Shown piece by piece: positions 5,119 to 36,939 of a stretch of 64,000 bases of DNA. The stretch spans positions 1-64,000 of the IMG/VR virus record IMGVR_UViG_3300025120_009952, one strand, 5' to 3'. How positions within the stretch are numbered: position 1 is the first letter of the stretch; each line of letters opens with the position of its first letter. A program made the position numbers and the translations under genes. Source of the stretch: a virus. Under the pieces are notes generated by a model that saw nothing but the letters and a program-made list of their open reading frames with translations, was not told the DNA's origin and searched no databases.

Positions 5119-5144
5119 AACAACTAAACAAAGGAGTCAGTGAG

Positions 5145-14614: not shown

Positions 14615-15237
14615 CCATAGGCGCTCATCCAGATGACGTCGAACTTGGATGTGCAGGTACCCTGCTGAAATTTAAACAGCAAGGAGCAAATGTAGATATC
14701 GTTGTATCAAGAGATGATAATGCTCCACGTCCGAGTGTTAGACGAAACAGAGATATAATGATAAAAGAATACAAATCTTCTGAAAAAGTCTTAGGTATAC
14801 CATTTCACATAATGAAAAATCCTGTAAGCGAAGATGGGCGTCCTATTCTAGAATGGAACAGTACCACAATATCTGACATGGACAAGATTGTAAATAGAAA
14901 AGAATATGATCTGATTATTACACATTCACCAGGAGACCATCATAACGATCACGTTAACACATTCAAAATAGTAAACAGTAGCCTCAGAAGGTATCATGGC
15001 GAGTTTTGGGTAATGGAAGAAGCACCATATAATAATAAAAACAGAGATTTCCAAGCAGACATATTTGTTGATATTACAAACACCATTGATAAAAAACTTG
15101 AATCTATTTCTTGCTATTCAAGTTATTTCGACGACACACTCTTACACAATATAAAAGGATTAGCCGCATACCGAGGGCAAATGCTAGGTGTCGAATATGC
15201 AGAATCATTTCAACTTCGTTGGCGGAACATCTATTAA
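14596..15237 (+). CDS. PIG-L/LmbE-family N-deacetylase
   Basis: A zinc-dependent deacetylase of N-acetylated sugars. The zinc motif AHPDDVELG is at residues 10-18 (His11, Asp14), and the second zinc/catalytic segment THSPGDHHNDHV lies at about 110-121. The length of 213 is typical. It is placed between a dehydrogenase and a second aminotransferase, which suggests an amino sugar is first N-acetylated and later freed, or a GlcNAc-type precursor is opened. It overlaps the next ATG by one base (TAATG). Confidence 0.88.
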   Translation: MYSNILAIGAHPDDVELGCAGTLLKFKQQGANVDIVVSRDDNAPRPSVRRNRDIMIKEYKSSEKVLGIPFHIMKNPVSEDGRPILEWNSTTISDMDKIVNRKEYDLIITHSPGDHHNDHVNTFKIVNSSLRRYHGEFWVMEEAPYNNKNRDFQADIFVDITNTIDKKLESISCYSSYFDDTLLHNIKGLAAYRGQMLGVEYAESFQLRWRNIY

Positions 15238-16283
15238 TGGTCAAATTCATATACCTAGATCGACATTGGGCAATGATAAAAAAACATTACATAAAAAACT
15301 TAGACCAAATTTGGTCGCAGGGTAAAGTAGTGTACGAAGATTTGCAAGTTGTTGATTTAATAAAACAACACACTAACAGAAAATATGTTACTCTCACTAA
15401 CAGTTGCACGGATGCAATCACAATGATGATACAAGCATCATTAGAACCTGGCAGTGAAATAATTTGTCCTGCATACAGTTTTTATGCAACTGCCCATGCC
15501 ATATCCAGAGCAGGCTGTAAACCTGTGTTCGTCGATGTGGACAAAAACTATCATTTGGATTTAGATAAAATTAAACTAACGTCAAAGACTAAGGCAATGT
15601 TATTTGTGTCATTGTTCGGCAATCCCATGAACTATCCCGAAGTTTTAAAGTATTGCAAAACAAATGACATCATTTGTTTAGAAGATGCCGCACAAAGTTT
15701 TGGTTCTTCTTATGGCAAACACAAAAGTGGTGCAGTTGGATTAGCAAGTGCTTTAAGTTTTTCACCATCTAAACCTTCACCAACTTTTGGTTTTTTAGGT
15801 GCAATGGCAACAGATGACAAAGTGGTATTCGACTATGTCCAGGATGCAAAAAAGCACAGTATGTCAAATGGCACAGTAGGACATAATTCTAATCCTGCAA
15901 GTGCGTTGGTCCTCCAACTTCAACACAGTTTAGAATTGAATGAGTTATGCCAACAACACAGAAACGATCATGCATCTACATATGACATGGCGCTGGCCAA
16001 TCATGTGGTGTTGCCGGAGAGACAAGAAAAAACAAATTGGTCAAAATATGTTATTCAAACTGATGATCGGGATGAACTTAAAACATTTTTAGACAAGCAG
16101 GGCATAGAAACTAAAATACACTACAACACATTATTACCAAAATACAAAATGTACAACAAACACACAATATATCCAAAAGCAGAATGGTTATCACATAGAA
16201 GTCTCAGCCTGCCTATAGACGCATGGATGTCGAACAAAGAATGTAATATGGTGTGCAAAGCAATAAAGGAATTCTTTTCATGA
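15237..16283 (+). CDS. Second DegT-family aminotransferase
   Basis: A PLP-dependent sugar aminotransferase, 348 residues from ATG 15237, which overlaps the deacetylase stop (TAATG). The open frame extends back to 15111 but that part is the deacetylase in another frame. Marks: LTNSCTDAITMM at about 53-64, CLEDAAQSFGSSYG at about 147-160, and the Schiff-base lysine Lys169 in SFSPSKPSPTFG. It is clearly related to the first copy (12657) but far diverged, with a shorter loop after the lysine, so the two probably act on different keto sugars. It overlaps the epimerase gene by four bases. Confidence 0.88.
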   Translation: MVKFIYLDRHWAMIKKHYIKNLDQIWSQGKVVYEDLQVVDLIKQHTNRKYVTLTNSCTDAITMMIQASLEPGSEIICPAYSFYATAHAISRAGCKPVFVDVDKNYHLDLDKIKLTSKTKAMLFVSLFGNPMNYPEVLKYCKTNDIICLEDAAQSFGSSYGKHKSGAVGLASALSFSPSKPSPTFGFLGAMATDDKVVFDYVQDAKKHSMSNGTVGHNSNPASALVLQLQHSLELNELCQQHRNDHASTYDMALANHVVLPERQEKTNWSKYVIQTDDRDELKTFLDKQGIETKIHYNTLLPKYKMYNKHTIYPKAEWLSHRSLSLPIDAWMSNKECNMVCKAIKEFFS

Positions 16284-17248
16284 ACGTACTGATACTAGGT
16301 GGGCATGGATTCATTGGTTCACATGTGAGCCACATCCTTAAAGCACAAGGACACACAGTTTCTGTGCTAGATTGCTATCATCAATACCATATATTTCCTG
16401 ACTGGGAGTATGAACCTGTGTTAGAACAAAGAAAGCAATGGGCAGGTGCTGACGAAATTCATATAGGAAAAATTGAAGATGCCTTTTTCTTAGAACATGT
16501 ATTCAAAAGTAGCAAGCCAGATATAGTAATTCATTTAGCAACATACCCGAATGCACATATGGTCAAACGTAACCCAGAAGATGCAACAGGAAATATGGTC
16601 ACAGCAAACATCAATATATTGAACGCCTGTGTAAAACATCACATTAAAAGGATAGTTTTCAGTTCAAGTTCTATGGTATATGGAGACTTCACTACAGAGG
16701 CTCCAGACGAAACCCACGCTACCAACCCACTTACATTGTATGGATCTTACAAATTGCAAGGTGAAAAGATGTGCGAAATTTGGAATAGAGAGCATGGATT
16801 AGAATACGTCATCATGCGTCCAAGTGCTTTGTATGGCACTAGAGACATGATTGTAAGAGTCATAAGTCAAATGACCAAAAGTGCTTTGGTCAATAAAAAG
16901 ATCACTGTCAATGGTCCGGACAACAAGTTAGATTTTAGTTTCGTGGAGGATGTTGCTGAATATTTTTGCAGAGTTGCATTTGAACCTACAGCGGCCAATC
17001 AAAAGTTTAACTGCACTAGAGGGCGTGGCAGGAAAATAATAGAAGCCGCGGACATGGTTCAGTCTTTGCTGGGTTCAAAGATATTGATAGAACTTAAACC
17101 ACATGATGCATTCTATCCAAACAGAGACACATTAAACAGCACAAAGATAGTCGAAACATTGAATTGGAAACCTACATATGATATAGAACAAGGTATTCCG
17201 AAATATATTGATTGGTTCTTAAAACAAGATTTTATTAGTAAACTTTAA
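16280..17248 (+). CDS. NAD-dependent epimerase/dehydratase (extended SDR)
   Basis: A sugar-nucleotide epimerase or dehydratase of the UDP-glucose 4-epimerase type. ATG 16280 overlaps the aminotransferase stop (ATGA) and gives MNVLILGGHGFIGSH, with the nucleotide motif GxxGxxG at residues 7-13. The catalytic triad is visible: FSSSSMVYGD (Ser/Thr) and LYGSYKLQGEK (YxxxK). The substrate-binding part follows with RPSALYG and FSFVEDVAEYF. The length of 322 is normal. It is the last gene of the plus-strand sugar operon; its last 14 bases overlap the end of the convergent carbamoyltransferase gene, and no terminator is visible between the two. Confidence 0.9.
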   Translation: MNVLILGGHGFIGSHVSHILKAQGHTVSVLDCYHQYHIFPDWEYEPVLEQRKQWAGADEIHIGKIEDAFFLEHVFKSSKPDIVIHLATYPNAHMVKRNPEDATGNMVTANINILNACVKHHIKRIVFSSSSMVYGDFTTEAPDETHATNPLTLYGSYKLQGEKMCEIWNREHGLEYVIMRPSALYGTRDMIVRVISQMTKSALVNKKITVNGPDNKLDFSFVEDVAEYFCRVAFEPTAANQKFNCTRGRGRKIIEAADMVQSLLGSKILIELKPHDAFYPNRDTLNSTKIVETLNWKPTYDIEQGIPKYIDWFLKQDFISKL

Positions 17249-18740
17249 CCCTGTATTCTTTTTCCCAGGCTTCTGCATCTTTTTCATCATTAACCATCGG
17301 CTTGCCTCTAATGTTAAGTGAAGTGTTTAGCAACATAGGACACCCAGTAACTCTGTACCATTCTTCTAATAATGCTCTGAATCCCGGAGAATCATCATTG
17401 CCTACAGTTTGTACTCTTGATGTACCATCTTTATGTACGATAGCAGGAAATAAATGTGGCTTCTTGCAAGGTGCTGTGAATTGCATATACGGAGATATCT
17501 CAATACCTTTAGGCATGTCAAAGTAATCATGTACATGTTCTTCTAGAATTGCTGGAGCAAAAGGTCTAAACTTTTGCCTTTTCTTAATTGTGTTGACTTG
17601 GTCCTTTATCGCTGAACCTCTAGGATCTGCTAACAAGGATCTATGTCCTAATGCTCGCGGACCAAACTCTGCTCTACCATTTGCTACACCACAAATTTTA
17701 CTTTTTGATAGTTCATATACAATGTCTTTTACTGGATATGGTCTGTCTATGTTGTAACCTAAAAACGGGTGTTTCCATTCTACCCATTCGTTGCGTTGAG
17801 CCAGTGCGGCACCTAATGCATTTCCTGAGTCTCCTGGTGACGGCATAACCCAAACATCTTCCCAAAGGTGTGATATAGTAGAGTTTGCTTTACAGTTCAA
17901 AGCACATCCACCCATATAAACTAAATTTTTACTTTTTGAAATGCGTTGTGCATATCTCATCACATTGAAAATTATATCTTCTGTCAGTGCTTGGATGCTA
18001 CAGGCAATGTCATATTCGGGAGGAAAGTCATCTTTAATTTTTGGTTTAAACGCTAGGCCTTTGTGTACATTGTGTTTCAACTTAAAGTCACCATTGCCCA
18101 TTTCTTGTATAAACTGATCTTTGATTTGCTCATAGTATATTGGCTCTCCATATGCCGCCATGCCCATTGTGATGTATTCTTCATGTAACGGTTTCAATCC
18201 AATATGATTTGTGAATGCTGTGTACAATAATCCTAGACTATGTGGATATCTTGTGCTGTGTAATTTGGTAATTTTTTGGTCTTTGGCTTCCCATATAGTA
18301 AGTGTGTCCCATTCTCCTATGGCATCTATTACCACTATTGTAGCGTCTCTAAACGGGCTCGTATAGTATCCTGCACATGCATGACTATAATGATGTTCAT
18401 GCGTTGACAGAGGTGGATTATGCTTTAATAAACCGTCAATTGATCCATTAAAGTACTGCTTCATGTACTTCTTAGGTGAGTTGCTTTGGAATGCTTGTTT
18501 CCATTCACCTGCATATATCTGTCGCTGTTTCTTTTTGAGTGGTTTTTCATACCAAGCAATTTCATCTGGTTTTCCGTGTTGTAAACAATCCTTCATCAAT
18601 TGAAGATTTATATGCTTGTCTAATTTGACTTTTGGTCCGTACCTTTCACTGTGCCCTGCGAATGCAATTTGATCATCGTCAATCAATGCAACCGCGGCAT
18701 CATGGAACAATGCACTTACACCTAAAATCTTTTTACCCAT
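17235..18740 (-). CDS. NodU/CmcH-type carbamoyltransferase
   Basis: Transfers a carbamoyl group from carbamoyl phosphate through carbamoyl-AMP to a hydroxyl, usually on a sugar. The N-terminal Kae1-like domain begins ILGVSALFHDAAVALI with a SERYGPKVKLD segment. The metal-binding HEHHYSHACAGYY lies at about residues 113-125. The C-terminal YrdC-like part has NGRAEFGPRALGHRSLLADP at about 360-379 and KFRPFAPAIL. At 501 residues it is shorter than NodU/CmcH (about 560-620). It is the last gene of the long minus-strand operon and carries an AAGGA ribosome site. The target is most likely the sugar made by the neighbouring genes. Confidence 0.9.
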   Translation of the reverse strand: MGKKILGVSALFHDAAVALIDDDQIAFAGHSERYGPKVKLDKHINLQLMKDCLQHGKPDEIAWYEKPLKKKQRQIYAGEWKQAFQSNSPKKYMKQYFNGSIDGLLKHNPPLSTHEHHYSHACAGYYTSPFRDATIVVIDAIGEWDTLTIWEAKDQKITKLHSTRYPHSLGLLYTAFTNHIGLKPLHEEYITMGMAAYGEPIYYEQIKDQFIQEMGNGDFKLKHNVHKGLAFKPKIKDDFPPEYDIACSIQALTEDIIFNVMRYAQRISKSKNLVYMGGCALNCKANSTISHLWEDVWVMPSPGDSGNALGAALAQRNEWVEWKHPFLGYNIDRPYPVKDIVYELSKSKICGVANGRAEFGPRALGHRSLLADPRGSAIKDQVNTIKKRQKFRPFAPAILEEHVHDYFDMPKGIEISPYMQFTAPCKKPHLFPAIVHKDGTSRVQTVGNDDSPGFRALLEEWYRVTGCPMLLNTSLNIRGKPMVNDEKDAEAWEKEYRVKVY

Positions 18741-19566
18741 ATAATTCCTTTAACTTGTTATTTAATATTACACTAAGATGGGTATGACTTGCAACACCTA
18801 AGTGTCCATCTGGTAATTTATCATCAGGGTCTTGCATATAACTCCAAACCGTGAAGTCTTCTTCGGGCCATCCCATGAATGTATCAAAGTTCATGCCATC
18901 CAGTATAGGATAAATCCTTCGATCATTAAAATTTTCTTTGTACAATTCTTTGTTGCCAAATGCATTAAAGAAAAGATACTTTACTTTTTTAGATTCTAAA
19001 AACTGCTGTAGGTCTACTACTTGCTCTAAATATCTTACAAACAAATCACTATCAGAGTGCTTCAGGTAAAAATCTTTTTGATAATCTCTGTCACCTTGAT
19101 AAAATGGATCTTTCGGAGAGTTCAATCCCGACTCCTGTATTTGCACATAGGTCGTATCTCCATCATTATCATAAGGACCTGTTCTGCCTTGAAATCTGTA
19201 TGGGACCACGTGATCTATTTCATTTTTTGGCCTAGCATATTCTACTCTTACTGCCGTGCTCCAACCTATTACAACATAGACATCTGCACAATCTTCGATA
19301 TCATTAATAAATTGCTTAGTACGCCTTATCATCCTGTCATTGGATCCGCCGGCCCATCCATCATTTATAAATTGACAATCCATTAATTTCCCTAACTTAC
19401 CGGGCCATGTGTCTATCAATCTCGCTTGTTCAAAGTGTTTCCAATGGAACTGCGGTTTAGCAGTCAAGTTGCCAATACCTGTGCCCCATGTAAAACTGTC
19501 ACCGTTTGCATAAATGACTGGTGTGTTAGGCTTCTCATGCCAAAATTTTCGGTAATCGTTAACCAT
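18733..19566 (-). CDS. SGNH/GDSL-type hydrolase or O-acyltransferase
   Basis: An SGNH hydrolase-like protein of 277 residues. Block I is NGDSFTWG with nucleophile Ser24. The GWAGGSNDRM segment at about 68-77 gives the oxyanion Gly and Asn74. Block V is PDGHLGVASHTHLS near 252-265, with Asp253 and His255 or His261 as the catalytic pair. There is no signal peptide, so it acts in the cytoplasm. Within a glycan cluster this class usually removes or adds an O-acetyl group. The gene starts in a TAATG overlap with the 36-residue gene upstream and overlaps the carbamoyltransferase by eight bases. Confidence 0.75.
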   Translation of the reverse strand: MVNDYRKFWHEKPNTPVIYANGDSFTWGTGIGNLTAKPQFHWKHFEQARLIDTWPGKLGKLMDCQFINDGWAGGSNDRMIRRTKQFINDIEDCADVYVVIGWSTAVRVEYARPKNEIDHVVPYRFQGRTGPYDNDGDTTYVQIQESGLNSPKDPFYQGDRDYQKDFYLKHSDSDLFVRYLEQVVDLQQFLESKKVKYLFFNAFGNKELYKENFNDRRIYPILDGMNFDTFMGWPEEDFTVWSYMQDPDDKLPDGHLGVASHTHLSVILNNKLKELYG

Positions 19567-19676
19567 TAATGGTAAATGAAAGGATCTCTCTTTTTAAGTT
19601 CTTTCAATCGTTTTTTGTATGCACGATTGGATTTCCATTTACGCCAAATGTTTTGTACCCATCTAATTATAAACAT
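19566..19676 (-). CDS. Tiny basic protein, 36 aa
   Basis: A short open frame on the minus strand, ATG at 19676 and TAA at 19566-19568. It codes for a very basic, aromatic peptide that starts MFIIRWVQNIWRKWK and ends DPFIYH. The middle is Lys/Arg-rich and helical. Its stop overlaps the next ATG as TAATG, which is exactly how real neighbours are joined in this genome. It also fills an otherwise empty 115-base gap in a fully packed operon. The function is unknown; an amphipathic membrane- or nucleic-acid-binding helix is possible. Confidence 0.6.
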   Translation of the reverse strand: MFIIRWVQNIWRKWKSNRAYKKRLKELKKRDPFIYH

Positions 19677-19683
19677 ACTCTAA

Positions 19684-21012
19684 TTATCCTATTGAATCCC
19701 ACCAATCTAATAAACGCTGGTCTTGTGAAAATATTTTTTCAAGAGTTAATTTTTTGTAATCGCGCCTAATGGCGCCTATTCTTTCTTGTTTCATCTTGCC
19801 ATCTAACCAACCCTTCTTATATTGATCAGGCCATGTCTCCTCAAACACAGGTCTGTTCTTTAATTGTTTTAGTACATCAACTAATGATTGCTGTTTTGAA
19901 TCCGCCAATGGTTCAATAAAATCTAACAGTTCGTCGACTATCTCGTTTAAAAGTTTACGTGGCAAAGCAATCGGTGATAAAACTATGTCCGGAGTGAATG
20001 CAAAGGTTACTTTGGTTAACATTTCTACATTCAACTGTTTGCTAAGCCTAAACATGTTTTTTAAATCTAACAAACCAGGGGTAGTGATTGTCAAATCTAA
20101 CCTCATTTGTCGTCCGTGACTTGCTATAGCACACCCACGTCTAAAGTTGTCCAACCATTTATTGTAGTCGAGTCCATCCCTTATCCATTCTCCTATCTTA
20201 CCTGTGCCATCTATAGATGCACATAGTTGCCAATCTCTAAAATGGACAAGCAAATCATCATACAGGTCAATACCTTTGTACTTTGTTCTACTTAAATTTG
20301 TATTGTATCTCACGTAAACCTTGTGAGCATCACCTTGATCTACAATCTGTTTCATGTATTTCCAGTGTTGTTCATACATCAACGGTTCACCACCTACCCA
20401 ATATATCTCTTCAACTAGATGATTATCAACTGCCGTTGCAAATTCTTTTTCAACTTCATCTTTTTGAAACTGTTTTATCTTTGATCTTGTAGGTTCAGCC
20501 ATCCATGCTTGGTCCTGTGGACTCCACATGTTGTTATTGCGTTGTTCTGATTCCCAACTAGAACTTAACATATCTCCACACATCCTACATTTAAAATTAC
20601 ATAGATTATTAAATCGATAATCAAAACTTACCACAGGCATTTCTGTTGACCCATCAGCAGAAGTTTTCGACCAAACGTCATCTTCTTTGTGTCCGAATAG
20701 ATGATTAAAGTAATCTCTATAAACATCTGTGTTCAGTAATTTGTTGTTACAAACCTGGCACTCTGGTAATTCTTCGCCTGCCATCATCCTACGTCTTACA
20801 CTTTTCATGTGCTCTGAATTCCAATGTTGTTGTAAAGTTTTTGGATTGTATTCTTTGTTGGCAGAGCCAGTGTCTATGTATTGTTCAAAACTTTCTGCTT
20901 TCTCTGTTGATGCACAACACATACGTCTTTCAGTCTGCGGAGACAAGTAGGTATGTGTCCATGGCGCCATGCACAAAGTTTTGTTGCCGTCTTTCTTTCT
21001 AAACTCCTGCAT
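19684..21012 (-). CDS. Radical SAM protein with N-terminal twitch-like module (copy 1)
   Basis: A radical SAM enzyme of 442 residues. The cluster motif CNFKCRMC has Cys138, Cys142 and Cys145, and YWVGGEPLMYEQ follows as the SAM-binding GGEP. Before it lies a second set of cysteines: Cys14 (LCMAPWTHTY), Cys32-Cys33 and Cys85/Cys88 (ECQVC), the pattern of a twitch domain that holds an auxiliary iron-sulfur cluster. Most SPASM/twitch enzymes have this module C-terminal, here it comes first. Twitch enzymes include sugar and aminocyclitol dehydrogenases and peptide-maturation enzymes; the substrate is unknown. It belongs to a run of five related genes and overlaps the next by 14 bases. Confidence 0.85.
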   Translation of the reverse strand: MQEFRKKDGNKTLCMAPWTHTYLSPQTERRMCCASTEKAESFEQYIDTGSANKEYNPKTLQQHWNSEHMKSVRRRMMAGEELPECQVCNNKLLNTDVYRDYFNHLFGHKEDDVWSKTSADGSTEMPVVSFDYRFNNLCNFKCRMCGDMLSSSWESEQRNNNMWSPQDQAWMAEPTRSKIKQFQKDEVEKEFATAVDNHLVEEIYWVGGEPLMYEQHWKYMKQIVDQGDAHKVYVRYNTNLSRTKYKGIDLYDDLLVHFRDWQLCASIDGTGKIGEWIRDGLDYNKWLDNFRRGCAIASHGRQMRLDLTITTPGLLDLKNMFRLSKQLNVEMLTKVTFAFTPDIVLSPIALPRKLLNEIVDELLDFIEPLADSKQQSLVDVLKQLKNRPVFEETWPDQYKKGWLDGKMKQERIGAIRRDYKKLTLEKIFSQDQRLLDWWDSIG

Positions 21013-22264
21013 CGATTAACATTTGATCAAGTTCTGGAAACGTCTTTGAAAAATTTTGATTCCTATACAAGTCAGTCCTATCTATCTCTGCTCTAAAATT
21101 TTTGAATGCTCTCATATCCATTACTGAATATTGGTCAATACGATTTACAGCAGTCTTAAGTTCTTGGTGCATTCGAGTAGGTAAATTATTGTTGTTAACT
21201 TTTTCTTTTATTCTTTCTTTAACTTCTTTTGGCAACGCCGTAATACTCATATGTCTTGGCTCATGTAGCATGTTGAAATACCAACTATCAAATTGTTTAG
21301 TTAATATCCATTGTCCCATGCCTACTAAGTTTAACACATTCAGCACATTTATTGTACAGCAAATTTGCGTTTCTATTGTGTTTACCTGTGATTTAATTTT
21401 ATCCCACTTATCAATGTTTGCATTAACTTCTCTCCATGTTGCTGGATATCTTTGATATTCAAATTGCTCCTCGACATCATCTATGCTGAAAGCAACATGA
21501 ACTTTCTTAAAATAAGGGAAAAGTTCTAGTATTTCTTTTTCTGGATATTGTGTACCATTTGTATTGTAATGAATCATCTGATCTTTGCTGTATCCTAGTT
21601 CTACAGATTTTCTAAGGACTTCAAAGTGTTCTTTGATCATCATAGGTTCACCGCCTGTGAATTCCCAATACTTTACTCCGGGAAGATAGTCTTCAAGTTC
21701 TTCCCAAAATACTTTTGTCTTACGTGGCCACTGCCCCATTTGTAGTTGCCTATAGTGCTCGGACTTTTTGAGATCTTCTTTGCTGGTGCCATCTGCTTTT
21801 AGGTAATCTAACGATTCTTGTGCCCACTTAGAACTGGACCAACTGCCACATATCCTACACTTTAAATTGCATATATTTCCTAGTTTAAGATCTAAGAATT
21901 GAATTGTTTTTGGATCAGTATCTTGATAATCTATCTTATCAAAGACCTTCGTGTACTCTAACATGTCGTAAGCAAGGATACGTTTACTTTTTCCTCCTGC
22001 TTGTTCGACACTCCAACATTTATTACAAGTGCTGGGTTTTTTCCCATCTAAGAATTCCTGTCTCAACTTTTTCATGTAATCGCTCTGGAATGCTTGTTGC
22101 AATGAATGTTCTTGCATGTTATATGGATGTCCATTAGGTTGTGTTATTAAATTGTCTGCAAGACAACATACTCTTGCCTCTCCATTTGGTGATGTTTCTA
22201 CCGATGTCCAAGGCAAAGAACAAATAGTGCGTGGTGGGGTATAAGATCTTTGTTTAAGCGCCAT
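20999..22264 (-). CDS. Radical SAM protein with N-terminal twitch-like module (copy 2)
   Basis: 421 residues. The radical SAM motif CNLKCRIC has Cys132, Cys136 and Cys139, then WEFTGGEPMMIKEH and later YNTNGTQYP. N-terminal cysteines: Cys15 (ICSLPWTSVE), Cys33-Cys34 (ARVCCLADN), Cys80 and Cys83 (CNKC). The same order and spacing as copies 1 and 3, so they arose by duplication. Residue identity by eye is low outside the motifs, so each copy probably has its own substrate. It overlaps copy 1 by 14 bases and copy 3 by 11. Confidence 0.85.
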   Translation of the reverse strand: MALKQRSYTPPRTICSLPWTSVETSPNGEARVCCLADNLITQPNGHPYNMQEHSLQQAFQSDYMKKLRQEFLDGKKPSTCNKCWSVEQAGGKSKRILAYDMLEYTKVFDKIDYQDTDPKTIQFLDLKLGNICNLKCRICGSWSSSKWAQESLDYLKADGTSKEDLKKSEHYRQLQMGQWPRKTKVFWEELEDYLPGVKYWEFTGGEPMMIKEHFEVLRKSVELGYSKDQMIHYNTNGTQYPEKEILELFPYFKKVHVAFSIDDVEEQFEYQRYPATWREVNANIDKWDKIKSQVNTIETQICCTINVLNVLNLVGMGQWILTKQFDSWYFNMLHEPRHMSITALPKEVKERIKEKVNNNNLPTRMHQELKTAVNRIDQYSVMDMRAFKNFRAEIDRTDLYRNQNFSKTFPELDQMLIDAGV

Positions 22265-23549
22265 TCAATATTGGCTCCAACTCGGGGAAAACATCTACAG
22301 TTTTCTCACTTCTTATCAGATCGAGTTGTTCAGTCTTTTTAACGAATGCAGGCAAGAACTTAGATTTGTCTCCCCCGTTCATAAAGTTCAGTGCAGATTC
22401 AAATCCATGCACTGCTCTTGTTAGTGGGTCTCTAGGACGTAACCATTCGATATGTTTCCTGTACTTCTCTTCGACCTGCCTTTTCATTTCTTGCGGCAAT
22501 AGATCGATTCTGTACCATAGAGGATCTTGTAAAATATTAATATTCAAATCAGCGGGTCTGATAAAACCTTTCATTACCCAATCTCTGTGAAAGTCAGGCA
22601 GATGAAACACATTAAAAATATTGAGTGTTGGAGAAATATAAAAATCGGCATGTGGAGCCACTTCCATCATACGTTCTCTGTTTGATTCTGTCTGTGCCCA
22701 GTCTGTGCCTTTACGCATTAGTTCTGCTCTTGGACCCATGGCATCCAAAGATGCACCTACACTGATGTCTGGAAAGTGTTTCCACATGTCTATGGCATCA
22801 TTCTTTTTGAATGCTGTTCTGCTGAAGTTGGTGTTATAAATCAATCTTACATTAGTTTTCTTTTGTTTGATAAGTTCTTCTAATATGACATAGTGCTCTT
22901 CCATAATGAGTGGTTCGCCGCCTGCGAAATAAACCTGTTCCAAGTAAGGTATATGTTCCAACAACTGCTCCATAGCATCAGTCTTAGTTTTGCCTGCATA
23001 CACTACTTTTGGTTGTGAAGGCTTGCCGTGTATCTTGACATGATCCTCGTACCAGTTTGAACTAAAAGGTATGCCACATGACCTACAACTAAAATTACAT
23101 AAATTTGAAAAACGTATATCCCAATATGTCATTTCAAATCTTTCAAACTCACCATCCTCTTTTGTTTCGTGTACTTTCTTTATGTTATGTCCAAAGTGTT
23201 GGTTGGCCGATTGACGCTGACTGAAGAAACCTGATTCTTCTTGTTCATAGCATTTTGTACATTCTTTCAAAGGTTTGTTATCCAGCATTGCTTTCCGCAT
23301 ACCTTTCATGGTATCATTGTTCCATACCTCTTTCATGCTTGTTTCTTTGATGTTGCCTACTGGGTATTCATATTTTGCAAGACAACAAGGATAGGCCCTT
23401 CCATCAGGATAAGCATGTAAATGGATCCATGGGTACATACAAAAATTATCTGACTCCATTAAAAGAAACTTTTCCTGTTCAGTCATTTCGTTCAATCCTA
23501 TTTTCAAAGGCTCTTTGGACCTATAAACTTTTGATTTGCTTAGTCTCAT
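22254..23549 (-). CDS. Radical SAM protein with N-terminal twitch-like module (copy 3)
   Basis: 431 residues. The core motif CNFSCRSC has Cys151, Cys155 and Cys158, followed by VYFAGGEPLIMEEH. The N-terminal module has Cys37 (FCMYPWIHLHAYPDG), Cys55-Cys56 (YPCCLAKY) and Cys97/Cys100 (CTKC). An extra 20 basic residues precede it compared with copies 1 and 2; a start at the internal Met in EMTEQEK is possible. The segment SVGASLDAMGPRAE corresponds to the barrel strand that follows the GGEP region. It overlaps copy 4 by four bases (ATGA type). Confidence 0.85.
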   Translation of the reverse strand: MRLSKSKVYRSKEPLKIGLNEMTEQEKFLLMESDNFCMYPWIHLHAYPDGRAYPCCLAKYEYPVGNIKETSMKEVWNNDTMKGMRKAMLDNKPLKECTKCYEQEESGFFSQRQSANQHFGHNIKKVHETKEDGEFERFEMTYWDIRFSNLCNFSCRSCGIPFSSNWYEDHVKIHGKPSQPKVVYAGKTKTDAMEQLLEHIPYLEQVYFAGGEPLIMEEHYVILEELIKQKKTNVRLIYNTNFSRTAFKKNDAIDMWKHFPDISVGASLDAMGPRAELMRKGTDWAQTESNRERMMEVAPHADFYISPTLNIFNVFHLPDFHRDWVMKGFIRPADLNINILQDPLWYRIDLLPQEMKRQVEEKYRKHIEWLRPRDPLTRAVHGFESALNFMNGGDKSKFLPAFVKKTEQLDLIRSEKTVDVFPELEPILNGA

Positions 23550-24904
23550 AATGTTTTATACCAATCTACTAGTTGTTTTGGGAAAGTATCTTCAAAGGAT
23601 TTATCTCTTCTTTGATCATACTGTGCCCAAAAATGTTTAAAATCGTGTTTTAATTTTGCCTGTTCAAATGCTTCTGCATGTGGCGTTTTGACCACATCAA
23701 GGTAGTCTATAAGTCGTTGTGTTTGATTTATTTCCATCTGATGCAATAGTTCACTATCCCTATTTTTGTCTAACCAACGTTGTAAATCTTCTTTGCGGTC
23801 TGTCCTAATATCTTCAGGCAAAACCAAAGGAGATTGAAAACTTGGAAAACGTAGAATATTTAACGTATATGTAGGAAAGTCCCTGCCATACTTGGCCTTA
23901 AGTTCTAACATATGATCTAAGAATTCAGTCAAACTAAAAAGGCACAAACTGTTTACTGTACACATCATATGGAAACCTTCTACATTGCCTTCTGAACATA
24001 GTCTATGTACGTTGCGTATCCACTGATCCCAATCCATTCCGTCCCTAATATACTCTGACTGTGCACCGACAGCCTCATTAGATGTGTAAACATGGAAATG
24101 ATCTATGAAGTGAGACTTTTCTATCATCCTGTCCATCAGTGCGTCCTTTGGACACAGATTAGAATTAATTGCTAGCCTAGTATCTGACTTTCCATGATTA
24201 TCTTTGAACCAATCAAATAACTTCCACATGTCTGCACTCATCATTGGTTCTCCACCGGTTACTCTTAGTTCTTGTAAAGTTCTGTGTAGATCGGCTTCCC
24301 ACCATTTCCAAAATGCTTCAATGTATGGATTATACTCTTGGTATCCAAACAACTGGTTCTCATCATGTTCGTGTGTGTAATGATTCCTACCATCTGATAT
24401 CAATCCTTTATAAGGCCCATCTTTTTTAAGATCCTTTACCCATGATGTTGAAAAAGCAGGATTGCAATAAGAACATGAAAAATTACAGGTCCTGTCAAAC
24501 GATATCTCTAATGTTTGTAAGTCCACATCTTCGGTATGTGGTGTGTCATATGCTGTCTGCAAATCATCATCTTGATAAATCACAGTCTTATAAACCCTGT
24601 CACTGATGTTGTTTCGGTCTATGTCTTCTATCTTCCAACAATACTCACAGCCTTTTGGTCTGTCTCCGCACTGCATCTGTTTGCGTTGTTCTTTTTTCTC
24701 TGGAGTGTTGTGGATTAGTTTGTAGTTTTTTTTAACTTCATTGATGTCTATCTTGTGTGGCAATGGATGATGGCATGATGTTGTCATTCCAGATCCTAAC
24801 CATATGGTTGCATTATACCATTTGGCCGCACAAAAACTGGCACTTTTAGGGTCGATCACTCTTTCTTTATATTGGTGATCTGTTTCATTTGGAAGTCTAG
24901 GCAT
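23546..24904 (-). CDS. Radical SAM protein, second subtype (copy 4)
   Basis: 452 residues. The core motif CNFSCSYC has Cys140, Cys144 and Cys147, with LRVTGGEPMMSAD as the SAM loop. The N-terminal module differs from copies 1-3: FCAAKWYNATIWLGSG with Cys25, then SCHHPLPHKID with Cys44 and its neighbouring histidines, and CEYCWKIED (Cys86, Cys89). The paralogue at 25940-27379 has the same SC.HP..HKID signature, so the five proteins fall into two subtypes of three and two. The substrate is unknown. It overlaps the unknown gene upstream by eight bases. Confidence 0.85.
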   Translation of the reverse strand: MPRLPNETDHQYKERVIDPKSASFCAAKWYNATIWLGSGMTTSCHHPLPHKIDINEVKKNYKLIHNTPEKKEQRKQMQCGDRPKGCEYCWKIEDIDRNNISDRVYKTVIYQDDDLQTAYDTPHTEDVDLQTLEISFDRTCNFSCSYCNPAFSTSWVKDLKKDGPYKGLISDGRNHYTHEHDENQLFGYQEYNPYIEAFWKWWEADLHRTLQELRVTGGEPMMSADMWKLFDWFKDNHGKSDTRLAINSNLCPKDALMDRMIEKSHFIDHFHVYTSNEAVGAQSEYIRDGMDWDQWIRNVHRLCSEGNVEGFHMMCTVNSLCLFSLTEFLDHMLELKAKYGRDFPTYTLNILRFPSFQSPLVLPEDIRTDRKEDLQRWLDKNRDSELLHQMEINQTQRLIDYLDVVKTPHAEAFEQAKLKHDFKHFWAQYDQRRDKSFEDTFPKQLVDWYKTL

Positions 24905-25946
24905 GTTGCTGTATATCTATCTCCTCTTCGCTCATAATCCACTCATACGTGGTTTTATGCTTATCTACAATTATAGCATAGATGTTGTTGTAACTGTTTA
25001 GTTTTTTGATAATATCCATCTGTACGGCAGATCCAAAAGGTTTGATGTTGATGTCACCGATCCATGGTTTGCCTACCCTAGTCAAGGCCGGTTCATGTTG
25101 ACGTATCCCGCGATCATACAACCATTTCCAATACCGTGTTTCCGTCATCTTTCTATCTTCTCGTGTCTGTGAACTCCCAAGGTATATTTGAAAGTCAGGA
25201 ATGATGTGTGTTGGAGCAAAAAGTTCTTCATTGTGGATGTGATCGTCATTATCATTGAATGCGTCCCAATATAATTTCCCCACAGTGCCGTCGGCAATGA
25301 AAACTTTGCCAAACTCATACCTGTCATTGAAACTTTTATCATCTTCTTGTGTATATTGTTCGTACAGATCAGTGTAATACTGTACATGTATTTCAGGGTT
25401 ATACCATTGTGCTCTGTGCCATCGTTTGTATTCTTCTCCCCAATGGAAGAGTTCGTGTGCAAGATTATTCAATTTGCTTATCTGCCAACGAATATTCGGA
25501 GGTGCTATGTCAAAATAAGGAGAAACACTTACTGTGTCATCAATTTTTTTAACACCCTCCAACTGGACAAATTTATCATGCAGTTGATTAACAACATCTA
25601 TGTTAAAACTTTTGCCATCTATCAAATTCTCTACTGTCAGATCCAAATCAACATTGAAGTCTGTTGTAATTCTGTTGTCCTGCAATTCCCAGGCCTTTTT
25701 AGCAAAGTTAAATTTGTTAATAGCATCTACCCTTGTGTGTAATTCATCTACAATGTGCCTAAGTGTCCTTGACTGGTCCATAATCCAACCATGATGTGAA
25801 ACATGTTTTTTAATTGGAGTTTTAGCATCCAGTGTGCGTTTTAAAAGATCTATCCATTTATTGGCAGTAGGAGTATCATACACATCAATCTCTATTTCGA
25901 TTTGATCTTTGATGTTGTTTTGTTTGCTTAAAATTACCCTTACCAT
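24897..25946 (-). CDS. Unknown protein with HExxH motif, 349 aa
   Basis: No family recognised. A soluble alpha-beta protein lying between the two subtype-2 radical SAM genes and overlapping both. The notable segment is KLNNLAHELFHWGEEYKRW at about 158-176, which contains HELFH (His164, Glu165, His168) followed by Glu171 and Glu172. HExxH is the zinc motif of many metallopeptidases, but it can also occur by chance in a conserved helix. The earlier segment VNQLHDKFVQLEG at about 119-131 has a similar N-x-L-H pattern and may be an internal duplicate. The second half is rich in Trp, Tyr and His. It is probably an accessory protein of the radical SAM enzymes. Confidence 0.6.
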   Translation of the reverse strand: MVRVILSKQNNIKDQIEIEIDVYDTPTANKWIDLLKRTLDAKTPIKKHVSHHGWIMDQSRTLRHIVDELHTRVDAINKFNFAKKAWELQDNRITTDFNVDLDLTVENLIDGKSFNIDVVNQLHDKFVQLEGVKKIDDTVSVSPYFDIAPPNIRWQISKLNNLAHELFHWGEEYKRWHRAQWYNPEIHVQYYTDLYEQYTQEDDKSFNDRYEFGKVFIADGTVGKLYWDAFNDNDDHIHNEELFAPTHIIPDFQIYLGSSQTREDRKMTETRYWKWLYDRGIRQHEPALTRVGKPWIGDINIKPFGSAVQMDIIKKLNSYNNIYAIIVDKHKTTYEWIMSEEEIDIQQHA

Positions 25947-27379
25947 CTATTTGATTCCATTTCGCATATGTCAAAAAACTGTTGCATCTCTGGAAATACT
26001 TCTCTGATGTTCAGATTGTGACGTGCATCATACTCTTTAAAAAATTTATGGAAATCGGCTCTCTTTCGACTCCTGTCATGAGATCCTTTTCTCATGTATG
26101 CTAGATCTCTTTCCATACGTTGTATTTCAAAATCTTTTATACAATGCAATCTATTATCTCTGGTTTCAATGTTTTCTTTCATCCATTCAATTGCTTCTTC
26201 GTGTACTGTCTGATATGACTCGGGAAGTATTTGTATGTTCTGCCAATCAGGTTCACGCAACAATGGTGTGTCGAACCATATGCGTTGATAATCATGAGAA
26301 TGTTTTTTGCGTAGTTCTAATATGCCTTGTAATAGTTTTTTAATACCTACAATGCTTAAATTGTTGTATGTTATAATAAACGTAATAGAATTGCGTCCTG
26401 GAATTTCTGTTAAAAATTGATCCACGTGATCCCACATACGATCAAAATCCAATCCACGTCTAATGTATTCTGCTTGTGTACCCCATGTGTCTATGCTTAC
26501 AAAGTTCATAAAATGTTCTACGTTGTCTTTTGCACATATACGTTTGACATAATCCAAATACTTGTCCCATAACTTTTCATTAGGTGGACAAAAGTTCGAA
26601 GTAACGTTGAGATGTAGATCAGGTTTGGGATTTGCCAAAACCCAATCAAATACTTTGTATGTGTTCTTGTCCATCATGGGTTCGCCACCAGTCATTCTAA
26701 AGTGTTTTAGATCTTTGTACATGTCTGGCCACCATTTCCAAAATGCATCTACATATGGATTTTCTTCTCTGGCTGGTACTGGCCTGTTTCTACCTGTGAA
26801 ATGTTCTGGCGCATTGTGTTCTTTTATTGTAGGATATGCTCCATGCTTGTCTATTTCTTGTCCCCAAGTAGTAGAAAACTGTGGGGAACAGTAAGTACAT
26901 GCAAAGTTACAAGCATGATTGAAGTTGACTTCAACGTATCTTGGATTGATGTTCTTTTCATACCCACCTTGTTCTATTTTATCAAAGTCCATCATTGCCC
27001 ATGGCTCGCCGGATCTATAATGTCTATCAGAATAGTTTCCTGTATCTTCTATGTTCCAACAATAAGAACATTCCGCAGGACGTTCTCCTTCTATCATTTT
27101 TTTACGTTGTTGTTTTTTGTGTGCTGTATTGTGTAAGGCCGCAGGATCTTTTGCAACTTCATCAGCATCTATCTTGTGTAGAGGCGGATGGTAACAGGAA
27201 TTATTAAGTCCTGTTGGTAGATGCAATGATACCTGCGACCATTTAGCCAAACACATGGAAGGTGATATACTGTCAAGTTTGTCTTTGGCTAATCTCGCTG
27301 AACGGAGGAAGTCAGACTCTAACTGTCCGTCTTGTTCGTGGACTGTATCGCCTTTGATGTTGTCTGCGACATCAGTCAT
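25940..27379 (-). CDS. Radical SAM protein, second subtype (copy 5)
   Basis: 479 residues, the longest of the five. The core motif CNFACTYC has Cys157, Cys161 and Cys164, then FRMTGGEPMMDKNT. The N-terminal module has MCLAKWSQVSLHLPTG with Cys43, SCYHPPLHKID (Cys62), and CSYCWNIED (Cys104, Cys107). It pairs with copy 4 in order and wording of motifs. A longer acidic N-terminus (residues 1-35) precedes the module. The gene overlaps the glycosyltransferase upstream by eight bases, so it follows directly on sugar-transfer genes in one transcript. Confidence 0.85.
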   Translation of the reverse strand: MTDVADNIKGDTVHEQDGQLESDFLRSARLAKDKLDSISPSMCLAKWSQVSLHLPTGLNNSCYHPPLHKIDADEVAKDPAALHNTAHKKQQRKKMIEGERPAECSYCWNIEDTGNYSDRHYRSGEPWAMMDFDKIEQGGYEKNINPRYVEVNFNHACNFACTYCSPQFSTTWGQEIDKHGAYPTIKEHNAPEHFTGRNRPVPAREENPYVDAFWKWWPDMYKDLKHFRMTGGEPMMDKNTYKVFDWVLANPKPDLHLNVTSNFCPPNEKLWDKYLDYVKRICAKDNVEHFMNFVSIDTWGTQAEYIRRGLDFDRMWDHVDQFLTEIPGRNSITFIITYNNLSIVGIKKLLQGILELRKKHSHDYQRIWFDTPLLREPDWQNIQILPESYQTVHEEAIEWMKENIETRDNRLHCIKDFEIQRMERDLAYMRKGSHDRSRKRADFHKFFKEYDARHNLNIREVFPEMQQFFDICEMESNRW

Positions 27380-28319
27380 TCATTCTCTTAAACACTTCTG
27401 TTTCTGTGGTCATTAACTTGAAAGTGTTTTCCCTTTTCATTTGTTTTTTGAAAAATTTACTTGCTTCGTCATCTAACAGTGTGATGTCCAAATCCAGTGT
27501 GTGTTTGATTTGATTGCCATACATTTGTACCTTGTCATACAACCAATCATCTGTTACATTGTCATAATCTTGTTCCTGCCAATACTTGTTGAGCCATTTA
27601 AAATCTCTAACATCGACAAAGTCCCAATCTGAGTGTGTTACTTTGTGGCAACCTTCTCTTGCACCCAGTATTGCCCACAATCCGTAATCAACATCTGCTC
27701 CTACACTCATCCAGACACAAAGGTTGTTTAGATTTTGTCTGTAAATTTTTTCTTTGAATTCAGGATTAGCAACTCTTTCACCCCTGTCCAAACTCATCTT
27801 TACACCTTCTCTGAACCCGGCACGCCATGCGTGTAGTTTAGATCCATTTGGGTGTGATGTTGAATAGACATTGTGCATTGGCATATATTTGCCATGAGCA
27901 CCTCCATAACAAAATTCTATTTTTGCTTCTGGATCTCCTTCTTCAGAGTTTTCATGACTGTTCATGTTTGCAACAAACTGTCTAGTCCAACTAGACAAGC
28001 CTCCATTGCCATACATTAATCCATTAATGATGTTGTATCCACGCCAACGGAAAGTGGCATGTTCTGTTTCATCTGTTATTGTTAATTGTTGATTAAAGAA
28101 ATTTGGGTCAACTGTGTTGTCACCGTCTACCAAAATAAATCTCTCTGTCTCTGACTGAAGGCCGGCGGCCCTGTGAGCATTGTCAGAACCATCCACACCG
28201 TGAACTCTTTTGGCCCATGGTACTTTGTTCAATAGATCTGCCCAGAACTCTTCGCACTGTGGCTCATCATAACTAAGATAGATTACATCTAGTTCCGCAA
28301 TATCTAAGATACTATTCAC
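27372..28319 (-). CDS. GT-A-type glycosyltransferase-like protein
   Basis: A 315-residue protein that reads like a GT-A sugar transferase: the first strand and loop DVIYLSYDEPQCEEFW at about 11-26, and the metal/nucleotide-sugar motif FILVDGDNTVD with Asp65 and Asp67. The second half has AWRAGFREGVKMSLDRG. It is homologous to the C-terminal part of the repeat protein at 10664-12664, which lacks the DGD. Start is GTG 28319, overlapping the stop of the upstream gene. The acceptor is unknown. Confidence 0.72.
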   Translation of the reverse strand: MNSILDIAELDVIYLSYDEPQCEEFWADLLNKVPWAKRVHGVDGSDNAHRAAGLQSETERFILVDGDNTVDPNFFNQQLTITDETEHATFRWRGYNIINGLMYGNGGLSSWTRQFVANMNSHENSEEGDPEAKIEFCYGGAHGKYMPMHNVYSTSHPNGSKLHAWRAGFREGVKMSLDRGERVANPEFKEKIYRQNLNNLCVWMSVGADVDYGLWAILGAREGCHKVTHSDWDFVDVRDFKWLNKYWQEQDYDNVTDDWLYDKVQMYGNQIKHTLDLDITLLDDEASKFFKKQMKRENTFKLMTTETEVFKRMND

Positions 28320-28770
28320 TGTCTTTGTAGACGTCGTTGTTTTCTAAATATTCTGTAAGTCTTTGTTTTTCTGCCTCGAAGTTTTCACTAGTGATTTCCA
28401 TAGTATCTATAACTAGATCTGGCTCACCTCTAACAGTTACAAAATAAACACCCGATACAATATCATCTGTGTGGGTAACTTGTCCTACTCGTGCGTCACT
28501 GGCTTTGTATATGTTATGTTCATTTAATTTCAATTCAAGTTTTTCGTTAATGACATGATATTCCCTTGTATATTTTTTGCCCTCTATGAATAACTTTCCA
28601 ACATTAGGCTGTACTTCTATATAAGGGTCGCTTGATGTTGTAGACGCTTCAGCGCCGATTTGTGTAATACTGCCATTGTTTGCTGGGTCATAGTGTATCC
28701 TCCATGCCTTACTTGGCTTAGAGTCATCCCAATTAAATCCTTTAATTGCTTCTAGTAGTTCATCGCTCAT
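28312..28770 (-). CDS. Unknown phage protein, 152 aa
   Basis: An acidic, soluble protein with a beta-rich middle (KLFIEGKKYTREYHVINEK, then VSGVYFVTVRGEPDLV) and a helical tail. Its start has the strongest ribosome site in the operon, AAGGAGATATACA before ATG 28770. No family or motif recognised. It lies between two glycosyltransferase-like genes and overlaps both by 8-11 bases. Confidence 0.6.
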   Translation of the reverse strand: MSDELLEAIKGFNWDDSKPSKAWRIHYDPANNGSITQIGAEASTTSSDPYIEVQPNVGKLFIEGKKYTREYHVINEKLELKLNEHNIYKASDARVGQVTHTDDIVSGVYFVTVRGEPDLVIDTMEITSENFEAEKQRLTEYLENNDVYKDSE

Positions 28771-29596
28771 TGTATATCTCCTTCAATGTATCTATCATCT
28801 TTTCTTTTAGAAATGATTTATTTTGGTAGTGAAAAGGCCCTGACTGGACAAAGCCACCAACATTAAGTCCCTTCTTGCTTAGATTCACAGGCAAACATCT
28901 CAGCCAGTTTGTATCAGGTGCTTCTACATCGTTCCAATCTTGTATTTTTGTTTTCATGTGTGTAAAATATGGTAGTGAATAAGTTTTATTATACACTACG
29001 TCGTCTAGATCGAGCAAGTATGCTGTGATACCAAATATCTCATCTGTGGTTGGGTGTTCTGGATACCAAGTGCCTGCAAAAAAATAATCAGCATAAAATT
29101 TATATCTTGCACTTACTTCTTTTGCTTTCTTAAAAAATTTATGTGCTAATTCTGAATATCTATAATAATAAATTCCGTTATACAACTTTGGCAAATCTTT
29201 CTTCTCGAAGTGCTTTCTATAAAAATCACTTGTTGCTATGTTACCTCTGTAGTCCTTGACATATGAAGTAAAGAATAATTCATGCTGTTGTAACTCATTC
29301 CACCACCAGTCAATATTGGATGTGAAAATCATGTCTGCTTCTACATGGATAGTTTCCTTGTATGGACTCAGATCCCATATTTGCCATTCGTTTTGCATAG
29401 GATGTGTCAATCCAACATTTTTTATTTCAACAACATGATCAAAAACTGGTGTGTAGTCTTCTGGTATAACATCTTTAGATGAAATCGCAATACACACTGA
29501 ATTGATTTCTTGCGTGTTCTTAATACTAAGAGCCAGTGCATAAGCATTCTTAATATATTCTTCACCAGACGCAAATATGAAATATCCCCTATTCAT
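28760..29596 (-). CDS. GT8-like glycosyltransferase-like protein
   Basis: 278 residues with the layout of a GT-A/family 8 transferase. The N-terminus YFIFASGEEYIKNAYALALS matches the start of that family, where a Ser-rich first helix follows the first strand. HVEADMIF has Glu86 and Asp88 in the place of the DxD motif. Later GIYYYRYSELAHKFF and HPTTDEIFGITAYLL fit the acceptor side. It is probably a cytoplasmic sugar transferase acting with the neighbouring two. It overlaps the next gene upstream by eight bases. Confidence 0.68.
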   Translation of the reverse strand: MNRGYFIFASGEEYIKNAYALALSIKNTQEINSVCIAISSKDVIPEDYTPVFDHVVEIKNVGLTHPMQNEWQIWDLSPYKETIHVEADMIFTSNIDWWWNELQQHELFFTSYVKDYRGNIATSDFYRKHFEKKDLPKLYNGIYYYRYSELAHKFFKKAKEVSARYKFYADYFFAGTWYPEHPTTDEIFGITAYLLDLDDVVYNKTYSLPYFTHMKTKIQDWNDVEAPDTNWLRCLPVNLSKKGLNVGGFVQSGPFHYQNKSFLKEKMIDTLKEIYNER

Positions 29597-30479
29597 CTAA
29601 AATTTCATCTGCAACCTTCATAGCAGATTCCTTATTCATGACATGGACGTTTTGTTTAGGAAATCCTGTGCCTGCCCAACCGGTGCCATATCTGTACACT
29701 ACCTTTTTAGAATTAAGCATTATGTTTTTATCTGCTAGGCATAAGATTTTAAAAGGCAAGTCGTATTCGGTGGTTTCTTTTTTGCCTTGCATCATGTGTA
29801 AAGCCACACTGACTGCAAAATCATTCCTGTATGTTCTTGATCCTTCAAATTTATAGAACTTAGAATAGTACAGCCAATTCTTCTTAACTGCTTTCATCAC
29901 ATCAAACATCATTTTTGATTCTGAACATTTTGTAAAATATAAAACTGTTGCCCAAAACATCCTAATGGTTTGATGGTGAAGTCTAGCATAATCAATTATG
30001 TTATCTTGATAAGATATTTCTTCTACATGTTTACCACACAAAATATTTTTTTCAGTTTGGAACAATTGATCCAAGGTATTGTCGAACACAAAATAATCAC
30101 AATCTATTAGAACTGTTTTATCAAATGGTGACAGTTTGTAGGCATCCGGACGAGACTGATTCTGCCATTGTATGGTTATGGTTTTTACGCCAACCAACAT
30201 CGACCTCCTGTTTACAAGTGCGTTAGTTTCGGGCCCTTTGCCTTTGTATTCAGGTTCTGTTACAATTATGTGATCAAAATACTGTGCTGTGGATGGAGTT
30301 GTTTCAATTTGTTTCTTACCTTTTGCATCAGTAATCACAGCAACCAAATTATTTTTCATGAATCGTTTTACATTTTTTGCATTGGCGATAGCCATGGTGA
30401 CATAATCTATTTTAATTTTATTCTTGTCGCTATCAAAAGCCTGCCCATTGAGAGCAAACATCAACACACCGTTAGTCAT
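29589..30479 (-). CDS. GT-A-type glycosyltransferase-like protein
   Basis: 296 residues. The central strand KTVLIDCDYFVFDN at about 121-134 gives a DCD motif (Asp126, Asp128) of the DxD type that binds metal and sugar nucleotide. The N-terminal strand YVTMAIANAKNVKRFMKNNL, and a segment reading NLVAVITDAKGKK, fit a transferase fold. The C-terminal half is helical with aromatic residues. Family membership is less clear than for 28760-29596. It overlaps both neighbours by eight bases. Confidence 0.62.
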   Translation of the reverse strand: MTNGVLMFALNGQAFDSDKNKIKIDYVTMAIANAKNVKRFMKNNLVAVITDAKGKKQIETTPSTAQYFDHIIVTEPEYKGKGPETNALVNRRSMLVGVKTITIQWQNQSRPDAYKLSPFDKTVLIDCDYFVFDNTLDQLFQTEKNILCGKHVEEISYQDNIIDYARLHHQTIRMFWATVLYFTKCSESKMMFDVMKAVKKNWLYYSKFYKFEGSRTYRNDFAVSVALHMMQGKKETTEYDLPFKILCLADKNIMLNSKKVVYRYGTGWAGTGFPKQNVHVMNKESAMKVADEILDE

Positions 30480-30819
30480 TGTTCATTATTTTCTCAACGG
30501 ATCTTTGTTTCTTGAGTTGCTCGTATAAGATATGATACTCGTTCATTGCGTCATAGTAGCACGACTCTGCTTTTGCTATAAATTTTTCAATGTCATTTAT
30601 CTTGATTGGAGTTTCATTTGTGTCCAGCATGATTAAGTCACGTGTGTTATCATGCATTTTTACAAATAAAATAGTGGCAGGATCGGCACAAAATAATCCG
30701 CCGTCACTAGCAAAGACCAATTTGTTCTTGGCTTTTTCTAAACCATTGCGTTTCTTAGTGTCTAATGCTGTTTTAAGATTTGAAAACTGTTCTACTTTCT
30801 TGAGAAATTCTGCGTCCAT
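30472..30819 (-). CDS. Unknown small protein heading the minus-strand operon, 115 aa
   Basis: The first gene of the 30819-17235 operon, directly after the promoter at 30828-30856, whose -10 box ends eight bases before the ATG. There is no clear ribosome site, so initiation from a near-leaderless message is likely. The protein has two helices around a beta segment (KLVFASDGGLFCADPATILF, then HDNTRDLIMLDTNETP) and a Lys/Glu-rich C-terminus with a Met-rich end. No family recognised. Confidence 0.55.
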   Translation of the reverse strand: MDAEFLKKVEQFSNLKTALDTKKRNGLEKAKNKLVFASDGGLFCADPATILFVKMHDNTRDLIMLDTNETPIKINDIEKFIAKAESCYYDAMNEYHILYEQLKKQRSVEKIMNND

Positions 30820-31877: not shown

Positions 31878-31885
31878 TATTTATC
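31878..31885 (-). promoter_or_regulatory. T4 late-type promoter (GATAAATA)
   Basis: Minus-strand GATAAATA, one mismatch to the T4 late consensus TATAAATA, 28 bases before ATG 31849. It overlaps the TGA stop of the 31884-33431 gene. A leader of about 20 bases contains AGGGAG. Confidence 0.6.
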
Positions 31886-36931: not shown

Positions 36932-36939
36932 TATTTATT
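36932..36939 (-). promoter_or_regulatory. T4 late-type promoter (AATAAATA)
   Basis: Minus-strand AATAAATA (one mismatch), 18 bases before ATG 36913. It overlaps the TAA stop of the giant gene by two bases. Confidence 0.55.

Follow-up and report, generated by a model that had tools for sequence, protein, structure and literature searches.

The carbon chemistry of radical S-adenosylmethionine (SAM) enzymes is unusual, and the enzymes are typically oxygen-sensitive and costly. In classical SPASM/twitch enzymes such as CteB and anSME, an auxiliary module lies C terminal to the core, and the twitch enzyme BtrN and the sugar enzyme DesII perform radical chemistry on aminocyclitols or sugars. Among viruses, one report credits the marine T4-like virus TARA_ERS488813_N000010 with 12 radical SAM genes (PMC5332604); another describes the host-recognition cluster of pelagimyophages, a hypervariable island containing tail fibres, as bearing glycosyltransferases and radical SAM cassettes (PMC7029224). 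Radical SAM and glycosyltransferase genes are also prevalent in Tasman Sea phages (PMC7150976). The locus examined here comprises five radical SAM genes, R1–R5, in a stretch of 64 kb (the window; positions 1 to 64,000 of the 65,146-base IMG/VR record IMGVR_UViG_3300025120_009952). The source virus is T4-like, with a baseplate wedge subunit (phrog_10646, 1028.8 bits), a second wedge subunit, a baseplate hub/tail lysozyme and a late sigma factor matched nearby, and the R1–R5 operon lies behind its tail-fibre genes.

All five genes are on the minus strand, at 19684–21012 (R1), 20999–22264 (R2), 22254–23549 (R3), 23546–24904 (R4) and 25940–27379 (R5), exactly the open reading frames (ORFs) called in the initial annotation, which had been made from the letters of the sequence without database searches. 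Each protein matched the family NF033640 (N_Twi_rSAM) over nearly its full length, with scores of 297.6 (R1), 362.6 (R2), 416.0 (R3), 305.7 (R4) and 326.0 bits (R5) against a curated whole-protein cut-off of 170 bits. An N-terminal twitch is thus an architecture already catalogued under NF033640, a family whose name assigns no function. The CxxxCxxC motif noted earlier is present in every protein (CNFKCRMC, CNLKCRIC, CNFSCRSC, CNFSCSYC and CNFACTYC in R1 to R5, respectively), as is GGEP, and the proposed division into two subtypes held, with C..PW...CC in R1–R3 and SC.HP..HKID in R4 and R5. The cysteine-rich module had been placed before the core, and the Pfam SPASM profile indeed matched residues 14–89 of R1, 15–84 of R2 and 37–101 of R3, ahead of Radical_SAM rather than in the classical C-terminal position; the Radical_SAM match itself exceeded the Pfam cut-off in R1–R3 and fell below it in R4 and R5. 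When each group was aligned separately, four N-terminal cysteines (C, C, CxxC) and the three core cysteines were retained in 303 of 304 orthologues: C14, C33, C85, C88 and C138/C142/C145 in R1 (48/48); C15, C34, C80, C83 and C132/C136/C139 in R2 (57/58); C37, C56, C97, C100 and C151/C155/C158 in R3 (53/53); C25, C44, C86, C89 and C140/C144/C147 in R4 (74/74); and C43, C62, C104, C107 and C157/C161/C164 in R5 (71/71). R1–R3 carry an extra adjacent cysteine (CC). Given this conservation and the SPASM match, each of R1–R5 probably holds a second, fully cysteine-ligated [4Fe-4S] cluster in its N-terminal twitch module. An AlphaFold2 model of R3 (mean predicted local distance difference test score [pLDDT] 92.3, predicted template modelling score 0.90) gave 14 Foldseek matches in the PDB at E ≤ 0.001, all to radical SAM proteins, at template modelling (TM) scores of only 0.28–0.51. 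The best of these modest matches were CteB, anSME and viperin, and DesII was among the weak ones (E 0.01); a profile search of the PDB with R3 returned no informative match.

To place the five genes in a wider set of viruses, viral contigs were scanned with an alignment of R4 and R5. Of the 412 stretches matched, 346 encode relatives, and the best 80 were analysed. A scan with R3 as a single protein found no relatives, its exact peptide patterns being too specific, and a mixed eight-protein alignment was dropped as a query because it was too diverse. The loci are metagenomic, orthologue labels come from BLAST clustering and our own profiles, and near-identical records are counted separately unless stated. 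In each of the 57 loci that extend at least 8.5 kb beyond R5 and could be judged (the window included), all five orthologue groups are present and clustered behind the same glycosyltransferase-like genes, in none are they scattered, and in 49 they follow the order R5-R4-R3-R2-R1. The five-gene set is obligate in these loci, its members always together, and the joint system envisaged in the initial annotation thereby survives one refutation proposed there, scattered genes without sugar genes in related phages. These 57 loci represent 48 distinct lineages at <95% R5 identity, or 35 at <85%, and fixed order with overlapping frames across so many lineages indicates more than a shared location. The common map reads T213, T515, T329, Z, GT296, GT278, Y, GT315, R5, often X371, R4, R3, R2, R1, often followed by X349 and a carbamoyltransferase; the cassette starts directly after the tail genes in nearly all loci, and 79% of 452 adjacent cassette gene pairs overlap. 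Mean pairwise identity is 66% for R1, 65% for R4 and 67% for R5, compared with 71% for a tail protein; GT315 is also strongly conserved, and the variable members are GT278 (46%), GT296 (41%), T329 (45%), Z (44%) and Y (41%). Constant chemistry acting on a varying acceptor or sugar would fit this pattern.

Because R4 and R5 had served as bait in the first scan, a second scan was made with the tail protein T213, which yielded at least 587 relatives in at least 600 stretches. When 50 of these records were searched whole, N_Twi proteins above the cut-off were found in 36 (the two richest records having 14 and 13 matches) and T329 in 43. Of 25 records in which T329 matched strongly and was followed by at least 9 kb of sequence, 23 contain, by reading of the matches, at least three N_Twi proteins; the exceptions are G046 and G049.

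In the window, the ten genes from Z115 (from 30819) down to R1 form a chain of end-to-start overlaps of 4–14 bases, so the single transcript proposed earlier is well founded. Upstream, on the same minus strand as all cassette features, lie the tail-fibre-like protein T515 (31884–33431, assigned by sequence and synteny) and, 40 bases before the overlapping chain, T329 (30860–31849), a Thr/Ser-rich protein of the tail-fibre region and candidate glycan acceptor by position and composition. The chain is headed by the small protein Z115 (30472–30819), whose position is kept in 69 loci, followed by GT296 (29589–30479), GT278 (28760–29596), a small protein (28312–28770) in the slot of Y, which is ∼115 amino acids long in relatives, and GT315 (27372–28319), found in almost every locus. 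X349 (24897–25946) separates R5 from R4 here and usually follows R1 in relatives. An accessory SGNH-like gene (18733–19566) begins 117 bases downstream of R1 and is followed by an accessory gene for a NodU/TobZ-type O-carbamoyltransferase (17235–18740).

Three glycosyltransferase-like proteins had been annotated, and two of them gained profile support. The GT278 profile matched glycogenin (E 6.9e-5), GT296 aligned with GT278 in hhalign (99.5%, E 7e-23), and ExD and DxD positions are conserved in both, which supports their assignment as GT8-like glycosyltransferases. GT315, the third, is a putative GT-A-type enzyme on account of a DxD-like motif (DGDN) seen by eye; it matched nothing in Pfam, PHROGs or PDB sequences, nor GT278. 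Profile comparisons of GT315 with GT278 or a bacterial GT2 protein, and of GT278/GT296 with GT8 proteins of Vibrio phage K566 (below), gave nothing reliable, and PDB profile searches with GT296, GT315, X371 and X349 gave no informative match. The carbamoyltransferase annotation was supported by PF02543 and PF16861 and by phrog_1601 (E 1e-94), with a relative in 34 loci; the annotated SGNH hydrolase matched DUF6071 only (PF19547, 55.9 bits). T329 family members average 19% Thr and 10% Ser, a composition that suits O-glycosylation but is suggestive only, since Thr/Ser-rich tail fibres are common.

Several further features of the cassette and the window were observed. X349 is 27% identical, in an alignment of 25, to an orthologue (L026:17538–18596) whose model (pLDDT 88.4) matched only uncharacterized phage proteins in BFVD, including one of Agrobacterium phage Atu_ph07, and nothing in the PDB below E=1 by Foldseek; X349 may represent a new fold tied to the cassette. 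A scan with X349 itself gave a single locus, whose match (32%, E 3e-5) was rejected as chance, there being no cassette around the matching protein. By a simple motif search, SGNH/GDSL-like proteins of many kinds are inserted in the cassette in 27 of 80 loci (L028, L030, L038, L053, L071, L079, and others). A few viruses have a B12-binding radical SAM protein (PF04055 + PF02310) inserted between R5 and R4 (L056:8075–9577; L049, L067, and L081), and some cassettes encode a protein resembling arginine deiminases or amidinotransferases (L035:8940–9971, L037, and L043; PF02274, just below cut-off). Facing the cassette on the plus strand of the window (12657–17248) is a nucleotide-sugar-like set of two DegT aminotransferases, a Gfo/Idh/MocA oxidoreductase and a PIG-L deacetylase, together with a protein that resembles an epimerase by sequence. 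Elsewhere are a QueE-like sixth radical SAM gene outside the cassette (679–1608, plus strand; phrog_2076, E 3.5e-52) and, between the tail-fibre and baseplate genes, a 4803-amino acid ORF (36938–51349, minus strand), perhaps in a VrlC-like position.

The phylogeny of the five groups was examined in a tree of 86 proteins built by a quick method. R1, R3, R4 and R5 each formed a single group (Shimodaira–Hasegawa-like approximate likelihood ratio support 99%, 81, 97% and 100%, respectively), as did R2 with the exception of one row on a long branch and one from a bacterium, and the tree split R4+R5 from R1+R2+R3, in line with the motif subtypes. A Bacteriovoracaceae locus with eight N_Twi genes (L101) holds a relative of every viral group, and is considered chromosomal because genes for Obg, ribosomal protein L27 and Lgt flank it. 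The paralogues would therefore have split before the exchange between virus and bacterium, and the idea of a phage-specific set was rejected. In a second Bacteriovoracaceae genome the genes are divided between two loci, L167 with R1-, R2- and R3-like genes and L269 with R4 and R5. Because the five always co-occur in viruses and recur in bacteria, they probably form one portable pathway. N_Twi proteins (E ≤ 1e-40) were found in 30 of 114 Bdellovibrionota genomes, up to 12 each; as raw counts, 80 neighbours there included 19 further radical SAM, seven GT2, four ATP-binding cassette (ABC), one DegT and one deoxythymidine diphosphate-sugar epimerase protein. Radical SAM and GT2 neighbours stood out within Bdellovibrionota only; across bacterial phyla, the Pfam assignments of N_Twi neighbours were heterogeneous and no partner predominated. 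On one long bacterial contig (L268), GT315 homologues at 933–1730 and 4284–5207 (minus strand; 155 and 272 bits) flank N_Twi and other radical SAM genes. Beside relatives of R4/R5 in several Bdellovibrionota loci there also recurs a protein of ∼305–325 amino acids whose S-D-[IL]-D-[LIV] motif resembles that of nucleotidyltransferases (L101:15718–16680, L110:11151–12128, L269:10200–11117, and L273:12174–13103); two that were tested had no Pfam match. Proteins resembling, by eye, the arginine deiminase/amidinotransferase-like one lie near N_Twi genes in L266 and L273.

The cassette is not found in cultured phages: tblastn with R3 and R5 matched only Vibrio phages K566 and K567, and GT278, GT315 and T329 had no match among 50,697 cultured-phage records. 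K566 encodes five N_Twi proteins within ∼17 kb, interleaved with two GT8 genes and one weakly GT4-like gene and adjoined by an LpxC-like gene and an annotated pagP. K566 protein 0311 was considered as a T329 relative from composition and position by eye and rejected, as the T329 profile does not match it.

Taken together, these observations are best explained by a single pathway whose five radical SAM enzymes, R1–R5, act one after another or cooperate and are translated together with GT8-like glycosyltransferases from genes immediately after those for the tail fibres. The glycosyltransferases would build a short glycan, which the radical SAM enzymes would tailor by oxidation, epimerization, dehydration or a change of carbon skeleton, and the accessory genes would add carbamoyl and other decorations. 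The most likely acceptor would be T329, just upstream of the gene chain, with the host envelope as the main alternative. What we infer in this account is the glycan nature of the product, its acceptor, the reactions and the sequence of steps, and we assign the account as a whole a probability of roughly 45%. A glycan product, also proposed in the initial annotation, is likely, being favored by the GT8-like relatives, the K566 cluster of N_Twi with GT8 and GT4-like genes, the GT2 neighbours in Bdellovibrionota and the GT315 homologues of L268; attachment to the virion is plausible. A bolder version, offered tentatively and somewhat unlikely, has the virus carry an obligate radical pathway of five enzymes that tailors a glycan on a tail-region protein of its own virion and is shared with Bdellovibrionota by exchange. 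We know of no description of radical SAM chemistry as a modification of the phage particle.

Several findings weigh against the glycan account. No glycosyltransferase or tail gene was recognized near the L101 set, which has housekeeping genes on both sides, so in that organism the five-gene set need not be linked to either. GT315 and X371 are without profile support as glycosyltransferases. Two records from the T213 scan (G046 and G049) carry T329 and glycosyltransferases without N_Twi enzymes, indicating that the modules can separate, although the records are fragments and absence from them is weak evidence. Finally, the nearest solved folds of R3, weak matches as they are, belong to viperin and to SPASM enzymes that modify peptides rather than to sugar enzymes.

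This last point leads to an alternative in which a protein or peptide (T329, Z, or Y) has its residues modified by the five enzymes, and the glycosyltransferases act separately on the modified protein. SPASM/twitch enzymes do so in the maturation of sulfatases and of ribosomally synthesized and post-translationally modified peptides (RiPPs), CteB and anSME are the best structural neighbours of R3, the SPASM match denotes a peptide-maturase-like module, and T329, Z and Y have set places where the gene chain starts. However, no RiPP precursor-like ORF was recognized among the called ORFs (those under 60–80 amino acids not being called), Z and Y are ordinary, moderately conserved proteins, and the searched Bacteriovoracaceae locus has no homologue of T329, Z or Y; we regard this alternative as unlikely. 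Synthesis of a modified glycan on the lipopolysaccharide or capsule of the infected cell, for example to block superinfection, is likewise unlikely. Such a role is proposed for the glycosyltransferases of the pelagimyophage cluster, whose tail-fibre-containing island also bears radical SAM cassettes (PMC7029224). It would accommodate the LpxC-like gene and pagP beside the K566 cluster, polysaccharide-type ABC genes (by eye) in Bdellovibrionota loci L266 and L273, and the nucleotide-sugar-like set on the window's opposite strand. Against it, the cassette starts directly after tail genes in nearly all loci, and R1, R4 and R5 are nearly as conserved as the tail protein, although a glycan aimed at the host should differ from one host to the next. 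That the enzymes make a small molecule or other product (a diffusible compound, cofactor, or lipid) and merely share a hypervariable island with tail and glycosyltransferase genes would suit the portability of the set to the L101 chromosome and the amidinotransferase-like and B12-type genes of some cassettes, but is quite improbable given the fixed order and overlapping frames across lineages.

Whichever substrate the enzymes act on, the set probably matters to infection, because such enzymes are typically costly and oxygen-sensitive, yet every member of a widespread uncultured group that could be judged has retained all five as a set. The cassette points to a function for the catalogued N_Twi family and names a minimal gene set, for which cultured Vibrio phage K566 and the bacterial genomes could serve as accessible models. 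If the product does reside on virions, protein sequence alone would give an incomplete picture of the tails in this virus group.

Compared with described systems, the locus combines familiar parts in a distinct arrangement. R1–R5 resemble CteB (5wgg) and anSME (4k37) in joining a radical SAM core to a cysteine module, but here the module precedes the core and has four conserved cysteines, and TM-scores are low; BtrN and DesII differ in domain order, with no sequence relationship shown. Vibrio phage K566 likewise mixes N_Twi proteins (five) with GT8 and GT4-like genes, but K566 and K567 are cultured, and their N_Twi proteins form a separate clade on long branches, are not individually orthologous to R1–R5 and lack the R1–R5 order. 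The viruses of PMC5332604 and PMC7029224 are likewise T4-like, with several radical SAM genes and a tail-fibre region containing glycosyltransferases; the descriptions consulted give counts or cassettes, without orthologue groups, a five-gene order, auxiliary-cluster analysis or a bacterial counterpart, and it is by these descriptions that they are set apart. In the literature searched, which left most subscription journals outside its scope, there was neither mention of the NF033640 accession nor a description of an obligate five-paralogue cassette. R1–R5 are members of NF033640, but a five-paralogue set in fixed order lies outside that family's definition. The enzyme family, with its N-terminal twitch, and the genomic island were known, and what is new is the strict multi-enzyme organization with a bacterial counterpart.

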